Below the pieces are notes generated by a model. That model worked only from the letters and a program-made list of their open reading frames with translations, did not search any database and had not been told where the DNA came from. A stretch of DNA of 32,641 bases from Bacillota bacterium. Its GTDB lineage: Bacteria > Bacillota > Clostridia > Saccharofermentanales > DTU023. Location: the NCBI GenBank assembly GCA_023622515.1, contig JAMNZB010000021.1, positions 1 through 32,641 on the forward strand, given 5' to 3'. Below are positions 7,707 through 14,902 of this stretch, piece after piece (the first letter of the stretch is position 1; every line of letters starts with the position of its first letter). Made by a program: the position numbers and the translations under genes.

Positions 7707-9395
7707 CTAACCTCCTATGGGAGGAGGGCTCGTTGGGCGTGCTGTTTCACCTTCTTTCGTTCGATAGACAGGAATCAAGCTGCCGTCCGGAGCTTCTTCA
7801 TAGTAGATGATTTCTGCAGCTTCTCCGGAACTGGGATCCGTCTTGTCCGCATCTTTTTTGTTCACATAAACTACACCTTCAAATCCGGGATAGGTATGGT
7901 CATACAATAGTTCCGACTTTAGCAGTTGCCCGCTTGTACCATAAAAGTTACGGTATACCTTGACATGGCGGTTTGGTCTTGGAGCTACTTTTACCTCTGT
8001 CGTGTCAGCCGGAATATCATCATTCTGCTCTTCGATAGGTTCTTTATCGAGTTTTATTTGCTCGAGCTCTTCGACATATAAATCAATCTTGGCGTTATCG
8101 GGATTAGCCGGGCCATAGAAGGAAAAGCTGAGAGTCGCTCCGTCAAAATATGCGGTAATAACATAGGGGTAGTCGCTGGTATTCGTAAAGACAAGGTCAG
8201 ACCAATCGGAAACCATGCAGTCGGTGCCGATTGGTGTGTAATTAACCGGTGTAGAGTGGAAATTGTGCACATCAATACGCATATTAGCACGAACGGCAGC
8301 AATATAGAGGGTCGTGCTGGGTTGGCAGAGACCACCGCCGACACCCAGACTGTCATTGCCATATTGGTCTTGTACACCGGCAGCGACAAAGCCGTTGGCC
8401 TGTGTCATAGGGCCGATTGTTTGATGAAAGGAAAAGCTTTCGCCCGGATTGATGATTGTTCCGTGGATACGGTCAGCAGCCAGTTTTACATTCAAATTTC
8501 TTGCTTCGGAATAGGACATGATTGGTGTGGAAGCTGAGTCAACAAAACCTAAAAGCTCATTCAACTCTTTTGCTGTCTTCCCTGCCTCTGAGATTTTTAC
8601 GTCAAGCTTTATTTCTTTGGTAAATTCTTTCTTAGTGAGAGCATCGCGAATCTGACGTTCTAATTTATCCTCGCCAAGTAGCTCTCTCTCTTCTCTTTCG
8701 TCTTCAAAAACAAATTCGCCGGTCTCAAAATTAAAATCAATAGCCCTGGCCTCACCGCCATCTTGGTTGACCTCATCTTTTAGCTTGGCAAATCCGATTT
8801 GGAAAGCACTTTCATCAATACGGAAGGCATCATTTAAAATTACTTTTCGGCCAAAAATCTTCCGGCTCTCCTTTATGGCCTCTTCCATTATGGCGTCAAT
8901 ATCAAGGCGAAGCCCCAGGTCATAAGGGGTCATCCGCAAAACATCATCTTTATTATCGGAATATATAAAGCTGTAGCTGCCCAAATTTTTTAACAAGTTT
9001 TCTTCGCTATTTTCAATGGTGCGCACAGCCTCTGCATAGGTCTTCCCACCAAGGTCAGCACTCTTGTAGCGAATCCCTTGCGCTATTTCACCCTCCGGGG
9101 CTGCTTTGGCTTCCCCGGCAGGCTCAAGACAAGTCAGGCAGGCTTCCAGCTGGTAGAGCCTGGTATAGCGTTGATAGGCATAAACACTAAAGCCTAAGGC
9201 GATAACAAGGAGTAGGAGCAGAACCGCCAAGGTAATTTTGCTGCGGCGGGCGTACTTAATTTCCCTTGCTTGCTTATTGTCTCTCTTTTTCGCCTGACTA
9301 ACCGGAACATTTGTTTTTTTTGCCTTAGTCTGCCTACTTAGTTTGCTTTGTTTAGTCTGTTTATTTTTTTTCCTTCTATCAACATTCTTTTTCAT
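7707..9395 (-). CDS. VanW family protein with N-terminal membrane anchor
   Basis: A 562-residue envelope protein. The first 50 residues are very rich in Lys and Arg, and a single membrane span follows (about 53-76), so the rest should be outside. The middle (about 100-275) resembles the putative peptidoglycan-binding domain often found before VanW. The VanW domain spans about 290-430, with NPGESFSFHQTIGP, GVGGGLCQPSTTLY and NFHSTPVNYTPIGTD. The C-terminus is Pro-rich. VanW was first seen in vancomycin-resistance clusters, but its biochemical role is not established, and nothing here indicates resistance. The ATG overlaps the stop of the upstream NlpC/P60 gene by one base (TAATG), so the two are translationally coupled and probably act together at the wall. 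A CCTCC/GGAGG hairpin sits at the very 3' end (7710-7723). Confidence 0.9.
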   Translation of the reverse strand: MKKNVDRRKKNKQTKQSKLSRQTKAKKTNVPVSQAKKRDNKQAREIKYARRSKITLAVLLLLLVIALGFSVYAYQRYTRLYQLEACLTCLEPAGEAKAAPEGEIAQGIRYKSADLGGKTYAEAVRTIENSEENLLKNLGSYSFIYSDNKDDVLRMTPYDLGLRLDIDAIMEEAIKESRKIFGRKVILNDAFRIDESAFQIGFAKLKDEVNQDGGEARAIDFNFETGEFVFEDEREERELLGEDKLERQIRDALTKKEFTKEIKLDVKISEAGKTAKELNELLGFVDSASTPIMSYSEARNLNVKLAADRIHGTIINPGESFSFHQTIGPMTQANGFVAAGVQDQYGNDSLGVGGGLCQPSTTLYIAAVRANMRIDVHNFHSTPVNYTPIGTDCMVSDWSDLVFTNTSDYPYVITAYFDGATLSFSFYGPANPDNAKIDLYVEELEQIKLDKEPIEEQNDDIPADTTEVKVAPRPNRHVKVYRNFYGTSGQLLKSELLYDHTYPGFEGVVYVNKKDADKTDPSSGEAAEIIYYEEAPDGSLIPVYRTKEGETARPTSPPPIGG

Positions 9396-11275
9396 TAGTA
9401 GAGAATCCTTCTTACTTGTGCGATACGTGCGGCCCAGAAGTCAAGATTGAGACTATCAACAACTACACCCGTCGCCTCTGTTCCGGCATGAACCATTTGT
9501 CCACCTCCGATATAGATGCCGACATGGTATACATCAGTTCCTGCTCCGAAGAAAACGAGATCCCCGGGAATCAGGCTACTATAATCCTTATAGCCAAAGG
9601 GTACGGAAATGCCTTCATAAACTTGGTCATAGGTAGAACGACCAATATAAACACCCTGCAAGGAGTAAATATATTGGGCAAAACCGGAACAGTCAAAGCT
9701 GTTCGGGCCCGCAGTGGCATATACATAAGGATAGCCCACATACTGTAAGGCGGTGTTCGCAACGGCTGATCCACCGGCAAGATTGGCCGTGTTTTGTGGA
9801 ATTTCCGCCGCAATATATTGAACTTCTTCGTGAACAACCTGCTCCGTCAACTCTTCAGGAGCAATCTGCTCAGTTGTTAAAAAGTCACCGTGGACATAGG
9901 CTACCTCTCCGTCATACCACTGAATTTGGAACCAACCGCCCGTGTAGCCAATGGCTTCGCACCAGTCACCATAGAGCATCGTACCAATAATTTCCCCGGC
10001 AGTGCTGGGCGTTTTACGGATATTAACACCGGAAAATTCAGAATAGAGGATTCCATAATAGGGTTCGAATTCACTATCCTGATATGTTGGTTGAACAACA
10101 ATTTGCTCCTCAACAACTTGTGCCGTCGGAACATAGTTATAGGACAAAAGGTTGGTGTATATATACCCTTCAAAGCCGTCACTCAGTCTAACACGGGACC
10201 AGCTGCCATTTGTCTCAATTTCATAAACGACCTCCCCGGCATGAACTTCACGGAGAATCTCTGCATCAAGGGCGGCATTCATACGAACATTAACGACATC
10301 ACCATAGACATAGGCTTGAACCTGCGTCGGGTAAAAGCCTCCGGCTACCGCAGGATTATGGCTTGTCGGTGCTGTTGTCGGCGCCACTGTCGGGGCCACT
10401 GTCGGCACTATGGTCGGAGTGGTTTCAAGAGAAAGGCTGTCACTTGGGGTCGCCGTCTGCTCGATAAGGGCTTCCGTGCTCGCGATTGTAGGTTGGGCCG
10501 CTCCTATTTCCTCCCTTGTCTCAAGTGAAAGTGTTGGCAGGTTTGATATTTGAGCCGTTTCCGATTCGCCGGTTTCCAGCTGGCTGGCCTGGGCGACCTC
10601 TATCCATTCTGAGGGAGTAACGATATTTTGCTCCGCTGCAGCAGAAGGGGAACGCCAAATCAGACGCTCCGGATTGTCAACAATCTTGGGTTCGCTCTGT
10701 TCTCCCGGAGGAATCCCCGCACCGGTTTGAATTAAGCTCTCCAGATAAACTTTATTCACCATACGGACAAGCTTTTCACGCTCTTCTTCCTGTTCTTCCG
10801 ACTCGCCGGCGGAACTTTCTATAGCAGCTTCTTCCGTCTCTACTACTTCAGGAGTGAGCATGCGGGTAGCCACAGGTAAGGTGTTGATTTCCATTTGTAT
10901 AGGCTTGCCCTTTGGCATGTTAATAATCAAGAGGACCAAAACAACCATCAAAGAAACAGCAACCAACGGTAAGACAAATAAAAGAATTCTTTTGCCCAAG
11001 GAAGGCTTTATCTTTTTTGCTTCTTCTTGTTCTCCGGCAAATACAGGCCTATTTGTAGCCTTGTTTAGAAGCTCACCTGTAGCATAGTCCTGTTTTCCGG
11101 TATTCGTCTTCTTACTCCCTCCTGCGAGAGGCTCTGCCATCGGCCTGGGCGGAATGGTCTTCTGCAAATCTTGACGTGCTTTTACCGGCTTACCGGGAAC
11201 AGGAGGGCGCCTAAAAGAGGGCTCGTCTGTTTTCCCCTTAACTTTATCTCTATTTTTATTTTTCTTAAATCGCAT
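9395..11275 (-). CDS. SH3-domain NlpC/P60 cell-wall hydrolase, membrane-anchored
   Basis: A 626-residue protein. A basic, Pro-rich cytoplasmic N-terminus is followed by one membrane span (about 97-117), a long acidic and Thr/Ser-rich linker with four or more PT-x-x repeats (PTIVPTVAPTVAP), and two bacterial SH3 domains (about 310-365 with VNVRMNAALDAEI, and 395-455 with GVNIRKTPSTAGEI). The C-terminal NlpC/P60 domain has catalytic Cys in FDCSGFAQYIY, His in YHVGIYIGGG and a third polar residue in MVHAG. Such enzymes cut peptide stems of peptidoglycan. I chose ATG 11275 because GGAG lies seven bases upstream; a TTG at 11317 would add 14 residues behind a poly-G that sits too close. It forms an operon with the VanW gene. 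Confidence 0.92.
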   Translation of the reverse strand: MRFKKNKNRDKVKGKTDEPSFRRPPVPGKPVKARQDLQKTIPPRPMAEPLAGGSKKTNTGKQDYATGELLNKATNRPVFAGEQEEAKKIKPSLGKRILLFVLPLVAVSLMVVLVLLIINMPKGKPIQMEINTLPVATRMLTPEVVETEEAAIESSAGESEEQEEEREKLVRMVNKVYLESLIQTGAGIPPGEQSEPKIVDNPERLIWRSPSAAAEQNIVTPSEWIEVAQASQLETGESETAQISNLPTLSLETREEIGAAQPTIASTEALIEQTATPSDSLSLETTPTIVPTVAPTVAPTTAPTSHNPAVAGGFYPTQVQAYVYGDVVNVRMNAALDAEILREVHAGEVVYEIETNGSWSRVRLSDGFEGYIYTNLLSYNYVPTAQVVEEQIVVQPTYQDSEFEPYYGILYSEFSGVNIRKTPSTAGEIIGTMLYGDWCEAIGYTGGWFQIQWYDGEVAYVHGDFLTTEQIAPEELTEQVVHEEVQYIAAEIPQNTANLAGGSAVANTALQYVGYPYVYATAGPNSFDCSGFAQYIYSLQGVYIGRSTYDQVYEGISVPFGYKDYSSLIPGDLVFFGAGTDVYHVGIYIGGGQMVHAGTEATGVVVDSLNLDFWAARIAQVRRILY

Positions 11276-11414
11276 ATTTTTGCTCCAATCACCATGAGAA
11301 GCTTTTACAGCACACAAAAGCCCCCCTATAATGGTCTTTTCATTTTACCGTTTCAGCTTGCTTTCGTCTAGCTTGCTATATTTCATGTTGATTGCAATTT
11401 TGCAAATAATGTTA

Positions 11415-11445
11415 ATTATACAAAAAGAAAGACCCTCATTTTCAA
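11415..11445 (-). promoter_or_regulatory. Possible promoter of the NlpC/P60-VanW operon
   Basis: On the minus strand TTGAAA is followed after 19 bases by a perfect TATAAT (11415-11420), 140 bases ahead of the ATG at 11275. The spacing is longer than the ideal 17, so this is a candidate only. Two TTGCAA palindromes lie just downstream, around 11391-11404. Confidence 0.35.
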
Positions 11446-11520
11446 CAAGGTTCAAGCGGTTTCACCAGAGAACTTTTACAGCCCCTCGCCGGAGCTTAGA
11501 AGCAACTTTCTGCAGAATAG

Positions 11521-11775
11521 TTAATTTTTGCATGAGGAGATTTTTTCTCTTGACCTTTTCCTTTTTAGTTTTCGGACAACAAAAGCGACAGTAATTACAA
11601 GAAGTAGCAGGATAATTGGCGGGAGCACACTAATCGGCGGCGTTAAGCCGGGCGAAACGTTTTTCAATAACTTGCTTGTTTTCACTTGTAATGCCGGCTC
11701 CATCCCAGACAACAAAAGAAGTATTATTAACGAGAAACATAGCCGAGCGTAATAGTAGGGCCAGCAAAACGTCAT
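11521..11775 (-). CDS. Overlapping frame for a possible small membrane protein (uncertain)
   Basis: This 84-residue frame overlaps the previous one in the +1 phase. It reads as a coherent type I membrane protein: a signal-peptide-like core (LCFSLIILLLLSG, near residues 12-24), a short outer segment, a membrane span (PPIILLLLVITVAFVV) and a strongly basic tail (RKLKRKRSREK). Its own ATG at 11775 has no good ribosome binding site. Either it is reached by frameshift from the well-initiated frame above, or the two frames are halves of one gene broken by an indel, or the frame is chance. I cannot decide between these from the sequence. Confidence 0.28.
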   Translation of the reverse strand: MTFCWPYYYARLCFSLIILLLLSGMEPALQVKTSKLLKNVSPGLTPPISVLPPIILLLLVITVAFVVRKLKRKRSREKISSCKN

Positions 11776-11836
11776 TTTGTGAAAGGCCCTTGATATTTCG
11801 TAAAGTTTTTAAATTATCCCGCATTGAGGACATCAT
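11630..11836 (-). CDS. Small hypothetical protein with XRE-like helix-turn-helix features
   Basis: A 68-residue frame starting at tandem ATGs (11836 or 11833). The ribosome binding site AAAGGAGG is four to seven bases upstream, and a consensus-like promoter lies at 11865-11893. The N-terminal part, LKTLRNIKGLSQNDVLLAL, resembles the first two helices of XRE/Cro-type DNA-binding domains, and FVVWDGAGITSENKQVIEK could be the third and fourth helices (compare the usual W-x-x-G pattern). The stretch between them is unusually hydrophobic (LLLRSAMFLVNN), so the domain is divergent or has been damaged. Two palindromic operator candidates sit directly upstream, which would suit autoregulation. A second coherent frame overlaps its 3' half. 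I do not recognise a specific family. Confidence 0.5.
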   Translation of the reverse strand: MMSSMRDNLKTLRNIKGLSQNDVLLALLLRSAMFLVNNTSFVVWDGAGITSENKQVIEKRFARLNAAD

Positions 11837-11864
11837 GTTGCCTCCTTTGCCTTTAGCTAAACTT

Positions 11865-11893
11865 AGAATAAGGACCGCTATTTTACAAGTCAA
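11865..11893 (-). promoter_or_regulatory. Promoter of the small XRE-like gene
   Basis: On the minus strand TTGACT (5 of 6) is followed after exactly 17 bases by TATTCT (4 of 6). The expected transcription start, near 11858, is about 22 bases before the ATG and leaves room for the AAAGGAGG site. Both the position and the spacing support it. Confidence 0.55.
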
Positions 11894-11942
11894 GCAACAT
11901 TCCGTTGCCGGGCTTGTTTCATTACTTGCAACAATTTGTTGC
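11894..11942 (-). promoter_or_regulatory. Two copies of a GCAAC-N5-GTTGC operator candidate
   Basis: Two 15-base dyads lie side by side: GCAACATTCCGTTGC at 11894-11908, abutting the -35 of the small gene, and GCAACAATTTGTTGC at 11928-11942. They share 12 of 15 bases, and both have the same GCAAC and GTTGC arms. Their centres are 34 bases apart, a little over three helical turns. This is the usual look of a duplicated binding site for a dimeric regulator. The regulator is unknown; the adjacent XRE-like protein is the first candidate. Confidence 0.5.
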
Positions 11943-11975
11943 TACAGTATAAAACAGGAAATGACAAAGTTAAAA

Positions 11976-12008
11976 CCCCACCGCCGGATTTTTTATCTGG
12001 CGATGGGG
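11976..12008 (-). terminator. Rho-independent terminator of ilvE
   Basis: A 13-base stem (CCCCATCGCCAGA pairing with the 3' arm, two positions being G-T) closes a seven-base loop. On the minus strand it is followed by TTTT. It begins about 93 bases after the ilvE stop. The plus strand also has a T-rich tail, so it may work in both directions. Confidence 0.75.
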
Positions 12009-12100
12009 ATTTTATAATCTGACATCCGGACAAAGTTTCTTTGCTCAAAGCCTGAGCATCAAAGCAGCTGGCTATGAGAGCAAATTCCGGCATCCAGCAA

Positions 12101-13117
12101 CTAATCTACTTCCACGACCCAGCCATGAGGATCTTCCAGGTCACCGTATTGAATACCAACAAGATATTCATAGAGGGCCTTCGTTTTTGGGCCTACTTCC
12201 GTTTCCGAGTAAAAGACATGCTTTTTGCCTTCGTGTGTGAGCGATCCTATCGGAGAAATAACGGCCGCTGTTCCACAGGCACCGGCTTCTTTATATAGGT
12301 CCAACTTATCAATATAGACATCCTCCTCCGCAGTTTCCATGCCTAAATCTTCTGCTGCCTGCAGGAGAGATAGCTTTGTAATGGACTCTAAAATCGAGCT
12401 GCTTTGCGGTGTAACAAAGCGATCATCATGCGTAATCGCAAAAAAGTTTGCTGCCCCCGCTTCATCAATTTTTGTATGAGTTAAGGGGTCAAGGTAAACA
12501 CAGTCAGCATACCCTGCATCGGCAGCCTCTTTATGGGGCCATAAGCTGGCGGAGTAGTTTCCACCACATTTTGCTTGGCCTGTGCCGTAAGCAGCCGCAC
12601 GGTCATATTTTGTTGTCACTACATCAATCGGGGTCATGCCGCCCTTAAAGTAGGCACCAACAGGAGAGACAAAAACAGCAAAGAGATATTCCTTAGCAGG
12701 GGCTACACCCAGATTCTCGCCTATCCCAATCTGCATCGGCCGAATGTAGAGAGAGCCACCTGTACCATAAGGCGGTATATATTCTTCATTCGCTTTGACA
12801 ACTTTTTTTACGGCTTCAATGTATTGCTCTTCAGGAAATTCCGGCATAAGTAGCCGCCTTGCTGTACGCTGAAGACGTCTGGCATTCATTTCAGGACGGA
12901 AAAGTAGAATACGCCCGTCTTTTGCTCGATAGGCTTTCATCCCTTCAAATCCTTGCTGCCCATAATGCAAGGACGGCGAAGAAATATTGATGGTGATTTC
13001 ATCATCCTCAACGAGATTCCCCTCATCCCATTCACCATCCTTCCAATAGGAAAGATAGAGTGCATTTGTTTTGCGATATTTAAATCCCAGTTCATTCCAA
13101 TTTAATTCTTCTTTCAT
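12101..13117 (-). CDS. ilvE: Branched-chain amino acid aminotransferase
   Basis: A 338-residue class IV PLP aminotransferase that interconverts Leu, Ile and Val with their 2-oxo acids using glutamate/2-oxoglutarate. Diagnostic parts are SLHYGQQGFEGMKAYR near residue 53, RRLQRTARRLLMP, and the PLP-lysine segment GTGQAKCGGNYSAS, with the lysine near 182. EAGAANFFAI and SSSILESITKLSL follow. Length and motifs match the long (IlvE type II, eukaryote-like) group. I chose ATG 13117 because a perfect AAAGGAGG lies seven bases upstream; an upstream in-frame start at 13195 would add 26 unrelated residues. It stands alone with its own terminator. No T-box antiterminator motif was found in the upstream gap. 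Confidence 0.95.
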   Translation of the reverse strand: MKEELNWNELGFKYRKTNALYLSYWKDGEWDEGNLVEDDEITINISSPSLHYGQQGFEGMKAYRAKDGRILLFRPEMNARRLQRTARRLLMPEFPEEQYIEAVKKVVKANEEYIPPYGTGGSLYIRPMQIGIGENLGVAPAKEYLFAVFVSPVGAYFKGGMTPIDVVTTKYDRAAAYGTGQAKCGGNYSASLWPHKEAADAGYADCVYLDPLTHTKIDEAGAANFFAITHDDRFVTPQSSSILESITKLSLLQAAEDLGMETAEEDVYIDKLDLYKEAGACGTAAVISPIGSLTHEGKKHVFYSETEVGPKTKALYEYLVGIQYGDLEDPHGWVVEVD

Positions 13118-13464
13118 ATGTACCTCCTTTAGTTTATGAATCTGCCGTATTTTTCCGCCTGTTTTTACGGTTATCTTAGAAATTAATGCTAACATAAGGA
13201 ATATAAGAGAACAAGTTTTTTCGTATTAAAACACTTTTTATAGGTTAAATATGCAGCAAATGCTTTGCTTTCTCCCTTGATTAAGCCTAAAACTTCTAAT
13301 GTAAAAACTGTAATATTAATCCCGGTTATTTCTATACAACAGGTATTTTGCCGCTGCTGCTATTTAGCAATTCCGGATAAAACTCTCTAAGATTAGTCTT
13401 ACAAAAGGAAACAAGCTATAAAAGCAGCTCTTTTCTACCAGGAAAATTAGACCGATTGTTTTTC

Positions 13465-13479
13465 TTCTTCATTGAAGAA
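13465..13479 (+). promoter_or_regulatory. Dyad overlapping the trkA -35
   Basis: TTCTTCA-T-TGAAGAA is a perfect 7+7 palindrome around one central base. Its right arm includes the -35 hexamer TTGAAG, and a second dyad, TTGAA-GAA-TTCAA, overlaps it. Position over the -35 suggests a repressor site for the potassium-uptake operon. This is inference from symmetry and position. Confidence 0.4.
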
Positions 13480-13500
13480 TTCAAGATAAAAGCGTAAAAT
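13472..13500 (+). promoter_or_regulatory. Putative trkA-trkH promoter
   Basis: TTGAAG (4 of 6) and TAAAAT (5 of 6) are separated by exactly 17 bases, 37 bases ahead of the trkA ATG. It reads as a typical sigma-A promoter. Confidence 0.55.
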
Positions 13501-13537
13501 ATCTAGAAATCTTATTAATAATTTTACCGGAGGCCTT

Positions 13538-14902
13538 ATGCAAATCATAGTCGGAGGAGGCGGGAAAGTAGGAAGTTCTCTTGCCCATGAGTTAAGCCAT
13601 GAGGGACATAATGTTTTACTTATTGATGTAAATCAAAGCGCTATCAATAAGGTTATTGAGCTGAATGATGTTAATTCTATGATTGGCAGTATCACTTCGA
13701 TTGACTTACAAAAGAAAGCCGGAGTTGCTGCTTGTGATGTTTTTGTTGCTGTAACCAATTCAGATGAGGTCAATATCACCGCAGCCATTATAGCTAAAAA
13801 CTTAGGCGCCAAACACACTATTGCCCGTGTCCGCGATACTGAATACGCCTCCCACATAGGCTTCATGCGGAATAGCCTCGGTATATCCTATCTGGTAAAC
13901 CCTGAGTACGAAACGGCCCGACATCTTGGCGCTATGTTGCAGTTTCCCGCTGCCTATGCTCTGGAACGTTTTATAAGCGGCAATGTTGTGATGATGGAAG
14001 GAGAAATTGCCCAAGGAAGTTTTTTGAACGGAGTAAATTTGATTGAATTTAGAAAAAAATTTCCTTCACTAATTATTACAGCTGTTGCACGCGGCGAAGA
14101 TATTAGCATCCCCTCCGGTACATTTGTGCTCAAATCTGAAGACCGTATCCTAGTAACCGGCCTAATGAAAGATTTACAGAATCTTTATGCTCAATTCCCC
14201 GAATCAAAAAATCACTTTAAGAATATCCTTATCGTCGGGGGAGGAAGAATTACCTACTATCTTCTGCGTTATTTGCAAAAATCTAAAATTCGCATTGACC
14301 TTGTAGAAATAAACGAAAGCAGGGCAAATGAACTTGCGGGGGAATTTCCTGAAATTCGCGTGGTTATCGGTGATGGGACTGAGCACCTTGTGCTGGATGA
14401 ACTCCACCATGACGAACTGAACCTGCTTCTCGCCCTTACCGGCATGGATGAACAAAATATTATGATCAGCCTTTATGCCTTATCGAAGAAAATCCCTCGA
14501 ATTATGACCAAGGTAAACCGTACCGACTTGCTGCCTCTCCTTGCCGGCTTTGACTTGCAAACAACTGTGACCCCACATCTCATTGCTTGCGAGGGCATCA
14601 TGCGTTATATTCGCGCTAGAGGTAATACTCGTAATTCTCAAATCGAGGCCTTATATCGTTTGATGAATAATAGGGTGCTGGCCATTGAGTTCAATGTCCC
14701 TAAAGACAGTAAACTTATTGATACCCCCATTAAAGACTTAGAATTTCGAAACGAAAGCCTCATTGCCTTCATTTTCCGCGAAGGCAAAGTAATTTTCCCC
14801 CACGGCAGCAGTGAGTTGAAACCCCATGATCGAGTTGCTATCATGACAAAAGACTTAGATATAACCAGTCTAGATGACGCTATTGCTTTTCGCCAGAAAT
14901 AA
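13538..14902 (+). CDS. trkA: Trk potassium uptake regulatory NAD-binding subunit
   Basis: A 454-residue peripheral membrane protein that binds nucleotide and gates the TrkH channel. It has two tandem RCK units. The first begins with MQIIVGGGGKVGSSLA, a Rossmann GxGxxG site at residues 7-12, with the acidic Asp of LLIDVN closing the nucleotide pocket, followed by an RCK_C domain. The second begins with NILIVGGGRITYYLL near residue 228, with LVEIN and GDGTEHLVL, followed by another RCK_C. Duplicated length matches the two-unit TrkA form. GGAGG lies five to six bases before ATG. trkH follows after 36 bases, in the same operon. Confidence 0.96.
   Translation: MQIIVGGGGKVGSSLAHELSHEGHNVLLIDVNQSAINKVIELNDVNSMIGSITSIDLQKKAGVAACDVFVAVTNSDEVNITAAIIAKNLGAKHTIARVRDTEYASHIGFMRNSLGISYLVNPEYETARHLGAMLQFPAAYALERFISGNVVMMEGEIAQGSFLNGVNLIEFRKKFPSLIITAVARGEDISIPSGTFVLKSEDRILVTGLMKDLQNLYAQFPESKNHFKNILIVGGGRITYYLLRYLQKSKIRIDLVEINESRANELAGEFPEIRVVIGDGTEHLVLDELHHDELNLLLALTGMDEQNIMISLYALSKKIPRIMTKVNRTDLLPLLAGFDLQTTVTPHLIACEGIMRYIRARGNTRNSQIEALYRLMNNRVLAIEFNVPKDSKLIDTPIKDLEFRNESLIAFIFREGKVIFPHGSSELKPHDRVAIMTKDLDITSLDDAIAFRQK

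Follow-up and report, generated by a model that had tools for sequence, protein, structure and literature searches.

The question raised by this locus is whether two palindromes lying ahead of a gene for a 68-residue protein form an operator and, if so, what kind of protein would bind it. Both palindromes were located in the window, that is, the whole stretch of 32,641 nucleotides analysed, as exact GCAAC-N5-GTTGC matches with identical GCAAC and GTTGC arms, separated by 34 bases from start to start, as had been described in an earlier, sequence-only reading of the locus; the gap between them is 19 bases. The dyads sit between a terminator-like hairpin (12014-11971) and the small minus-strand ORF (11836-11633). 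The arrangement of two identical-arm dyads in a close array beside candidate promoters, the latter recognised as consensus matches, is that expected of a Cro/CI-type paired operator. Folded as RNA or DNA, the dyads give short hairpins; the strong one in this region is the terminator-like structure, which was not flagged by a terminator scan.

Coordinates of the paired dyads and of the features surrounding them in the window.
Feature	Position	Strand	Basis
Dyad 1, GCAACATTCCGTTGC	11894..11908	.	exact match
Dyad 2, GCAACAATTTGTTGC, perfect 15-base palindrome	11928..11942	.	exact match
Candidate promoter P2 (described in the earlier reading), TTGACT-17-TATTCT	11865..11893	-	consensus match 9/12
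Candidate promoter P1, TTAACT-16-TATACT	11946..11973	-	consensus match 9/12
Hairpin resembling a terminator, downstream of the aminotransferase gene; shares bases with the -35 of P1	11971..12014	-	fold, DNA parameters
AGGAGG ribosome-binding site	11841..11846	-	read from sequence
Gene for the 68-residue orphan protein; stop codon 11630-11632	11633..11836	-	ORF, codon score

When the window was shuffled 100 times with its dinucleotides preserved, the pattern GCAAC-N5-GTTGC was matched 0.02 times on average, and two matches were obtained in 0/100. The organism's own assembly of 2,014,194 bases (2.0 Mb, rated 90% complete) contains 2 copies, both at 11894-11942; since there is no other exact copy, the switch would be a local one and not a regulon. 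The probability that two randomly placed sites fall within 50 bases of each other is ~5e-5, and a close pair (gap 10-30) was found in only 1 of 391 genomes of the class, the genome under study. Single copies in 38 genomes of the family numbered 49 versus 48 for the reversed control pattern, which is the level expected by chance, and the dyad is therefore no family-wide regulon motif. Inspection of single sites covered 23 of the 47 outside the organism's own genome, one per genome, and placed 19 of the 23 inside ORFs of at least 150 residues, two (L006 and L008) upstream of an XRE ORF and two (L026 and L027) at what we take to be the start of a MutS-like gene. The frequency check in genome and family proposed with the earlier reading thus came out above chance for the pair and at chance for the single sites; it is the close pairing that departs from randomness.

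A scan of viral contigs for close GCAAC-N5-GTTGC pairs yielded 52 stretches. In 30 of these an XRE ORF begins no more than 400 bases from the pair, a count that leans towards these loci because the XRE profile derives from 20 proteins picked at the viral dyad loci themselves; Pfam HTH_3 was matched independently by all 20 of the 20 profile proteins sampled. When positions were drawn at random in the same loci, 200 draws placed on average 3.6 of the 52, and never more than 9, near the start of an XRE ORF. When the stretches were grouped by sequence, 15 of 35 clusters had an XRE ORF near the pair, as did 10 of the 19 clusters with a spacing of 33-36 bases. This spacing was the commonest, with 32 of the 52 stretches and 22 of those accompanied by an XRE ORF, and the 34 bases of the window fall within it. 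In 18 stretches a pair of XRE ORFs points away from the dyads in opposite directions, as in repressor/Cro switches; in 22 of the 52 no XRE ORF starts within the 400 bases, and several of these 22 resemble repeats or G+C-rich DNA by eye. These results show that GCAAC-N5-GTTGC pairs of similar spacing are found repeatedly next to XRE genes in phages and in phage-like islands. The connection with XRE-type regulators drawn in the sequence-only reading is upheld by these counts, and its statement that the site is not recognised has to be given up, the site being of a recurrent phage operator type.

The pairs found across the viral loci (L109-L160) are likely operators of XRE switches, and GTAAC half-sites appear in related switches. 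Literature searches combining the half-sites with repressor, operator or phage returned no paper on this operator among the matches listed; the half-sites are present in primers in the matched part of PMC4634304. For spellings of the dyad or promoter the matches listed hold only TTGACAGCAAC, and their titles concern other subjects.

The closest known systems are the divergent switches of CI/Cro type (XRE, HTH_3) found in temperate phages and phage-like elements (for example L111, L125, L133 and L141), which share with the window paired GCAAC-N5-GTTGC dyads, often 33-36 bases apart, beside promoters. In the phage switches, however, the dyads stand between two complete, divergent XRE genes (the 18 stretches above), whereas in the window no typical XRE gene is adjacent and the single gene there is an orphan in which no recognition helix can be recognised. 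The register differs as well, in that a phage dyad often follows TTGACA (abutting it with zero or one base between in 22 of the 52 stretches) whereas the -35 of the window stands on the other side of the dyad; TTGACA followed by exactly one base and a dyad was found at 1 of 175 loci. When four of the viral switches were compared with named phages by blastn, two gave no match and two gave partial matches. One (L177) of five named phage regions inspected contains two GTAAC-type dyads, and the intergenic stretch examined in each of the other four contains no dyad within two mismatches of GCAAC-N5-GTTGC. The one with the dyads, the region of the Cro-like gene of Latilactobacillus phage TMW 1.2272 P1 (OQ240260), resembles the window in its paired 15-base dyads with N5 centres, there located between divergent XRE-type genes, but the half-site is GTAAC instead of GCAAC (GTAAC-N5-GTTAC twice) and the dyads are 56 bases apart.

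A divergent XRE pair is also present in the same organism on contig C34 at ~103.95-104.54 kb (L163), where GTAACTTAAAGTTAC precedes the probable start of one of the two genes. GTAAC-N5-GTTAC occurs there once exactly, with a one-mismatch copy in addition between the two genes. It differs from the window by one base in each arm and by its full XRE domains, and it is not linked to the window locus. This pair is apparently the phage-like switch of the organism's own genome (G000). Exact GCAAC-N5-GTTGC was found in none of the loci of the 14 XRE matches in this genome, and a single one-mismatch copy in 1 of the 14. Two genomes from another genus of the family have a GCAAC-type dyad ~50 bases ahead of an XRE ORF; they count as one observation because the whole region is nearly identical.

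The 68-residue ORF is taken as a real gene on the basis of its codon usage and ribosome-binding site. Its codon score is 0.168 per codon, compared with 0.13 to 0.25 for the 20 genes of the window on which the codon model was trained and which were scored with the same model, and AGGAGG stands 4 and 7 bases ahead of two consecutive ATG codons. An overlapping minus-strand ORF in another frame (11521-11775) scored -0.094, which marks it as non-coding; its translation closes with a hydrophobic run and then basic residues, resembling a membrane anchor.

Residues 3-23 of the small protein scored 7.7 bits against the XRE profile, a value reached by none of 1998 scored shuffles, the next best of the 176 ORFs of the window scoring 2.1. 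In hhalign, residues 3-24 were aligned to the profile with a probability of 34. The region corresponds to XRE helix 1 and the start of helix 2 (L..LR...GLSQ.DV), and the alignments stop short of the turn and the recognition helix. No Pfam or NCBIfam family, HTH_3 included, matches the protein at E up to 1. The PHROGs search gave two insignificant matches, one to PHROG 37353 (E 0.058, function unknown) and the second, over residues 1-23, to a transcriptional-regulator family (E 0.12). A single-sequence structure model of low confidence (62.5) has a continuous helix at residues 20-38 versus the helix-turn-helix of an XRE domain; a PDB fold search with this model gave 9 matches when E was allowed up to 10, and none at E 0.001. 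The adjacent gene would thus encode an orphan protein whose start (residues 3-24) resembles that of XRE proteins. Beyond this resemblance, the proposal that the protein is an XRE repressor is not supported. A frameshifted XRE gene was considered and rejected: no recognition helix can be read in the other frames past residue 23, and the ORF at 11521-11775 is non-coding.

Relatives of the small protein were sought widely. Among 188 genomes of the order only the protein itself was recovered at E 0.01; phages and plasmids gave none at E 10, scans of genome contigs and of viral contigs gave none, and the genus and family genome sets contained no convincing relative. The search of the genomes with the nearest aminotransferase genes, run without a positive control, gave 0/14. 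Six weak matches in the 391 class genomes (E 0.0056-0.032) were rejected as wrong frames, stop-containing stretches or pieces of larger proteins, one of them (L108) being a larger protein with an XRE-like start. Two further weak matches (L004, E 0.016, and L005, E 0.083) were dropped as relatives, judged on ORF lists alone.

Two candidate promoters of equal score could direct transcription of the small gene. The earlier reading had placed dyad 1 in contact with the -35 of a 17-spaced promoter; this promoter (P2) is present and its -35 adjoins dyad 1 directly, yet as a 9/12 match it belongs to a set of promoter-like matches in 11250-13600 (8, compared with a shuffle mean of 5.1 and sd of 2.8) that is not clearly above shuffles. 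P1, absent from that reading, ends 3 bases before dyad 2. With the start point assumed 7 bases past the -10, dyad 2 spans about -3 to +12 of P1, and the dyad centres lie near -43 and -77 of P2, upstream of its -35. A blocking repressor does not usually sit upstream of -35, helix-turn-helix proteins near -43 can contact RNA polymerase, and lambda repressor sits roughly just upstream of -35 when it activates its own promoter. The layout of an autoregulated repressor, which had been proposed with P2 in mind, is therefore not supported by the dyad positions relative to P2, but dyad 2 would cover the start point of P1.

The dyads are probably a phage-style paired operator of the Cro/CI (XRE) kind that controls the 68-residue gene and is bound by an XRE-type protein. 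The proposal of a paired operator at the small gene's promoter is supported by the non-randomness of the pair and by its 34-base spacing. We infer that each 15-base palindrome would bind one dimer of a helix-turn-helix protein and that the pair, 34 bases apart, would control how active the gene's promoter or promoters are. Binding may repress P1, where dyad 2 over the start point has the place of a blocking repressor, and/or may act on P2 from upstream, where dyad 1 is just upstream of the -35. Candidates for the binder are the small protein, an XRE protein encoded on the chromosome, and a regulator belonging to an element that was lost or is missing from the assembly.

The first of these binders corresponds to autoregulation, in which the 68-residue protein would be a much diverged Cro-like protein that binds both dyads and shuts its own promoter, a special case of the paired XRE operator. 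The dyad pair is local to the small gene, and the XRE profile score unequalled by shuffles, the hhalign alignment and the PHROGs match to a regulator family all point this way; against it, the XRE match ends ahead of the recognition helix and has a probability of only 34 in hhalign, Pfam and NCBIfam supply no family, and the low-confidence model with its continuous helix has no PDB match at E 0.001. Autoregulation is accordingly a possible but rather doubtful special case. It is unlikely that another regulator, for example of the MarR, TetR or CRP type, binds the dyads and activates the small gene from upstream: the dyad centres relative to P2 are at activator-like positions under the assumed start point, but the sole association found for the paired dyad is with XRE genes, and the uniqueness of the pair in the genome speaks against a global regulator. 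That the dyads are two functionless look-alike palindromes is highly improbable, for although single sites are at chance frequency in the family and, where inspected, mostly inside long ORFs, and the promoters are not clearly above chance, the shuffles never gave two matches, two random sites would rarely lie this close and the pair is unique among the 391 genomes.

The probable paired operator, read as a phage-style element, is located in a segment that sets this lineage apart from two sister species. In these sisters only ~280 and ~365 bases separate the orthologue of the gene at 9395-11317 from the start of the counterpart of the gene that begins at 13538 in the window, the distances and the orthology of the latter gene having been read from sequence. 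The window's positions 11318-13537 (~2.2 kb), which comprise the aminotransferase gene, the dyads and the small gene, are absent at the same place in both sister species; from the short gap there, the ~2.2 kb are specific to this lineage or were lost in both sisters. Identity between the aminotransferase and those of its own family does not exceed 40%, but it reaches 78% with one from a Tissierellia bin, which suggests that its gene was acquired by transfer. The dyad was sought at 14 loci of the nearest aminotransferase genes and found at 0/14. Overall, the locus appears to combine a commonplace type of switch with an uncommon setting that is specific to the lineage. A more far-reaching reading, quite unlikely at present, is that the small protein represents a new minimal DNA-binding family in which the XRE start was kept and the recognition helix and C-terminal half were replaced, and which would regulate its own gene via a paired operator of phage style that reached the chromosome with the lineage-specific segment.

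The gain for the window itself would be modest. If the preferred reading of a paired XRE operator is true, an orphan gene on the chromosome makes use of a paired operator of phage type, and the GCAAC-N5-GTTGC dyad is tied to a recognisable class of XRE switches. Such a link between dyad and XRE genes would aid the reading of similar sites and invites a comparison of half-sites with recognition helices, which looks feasible.
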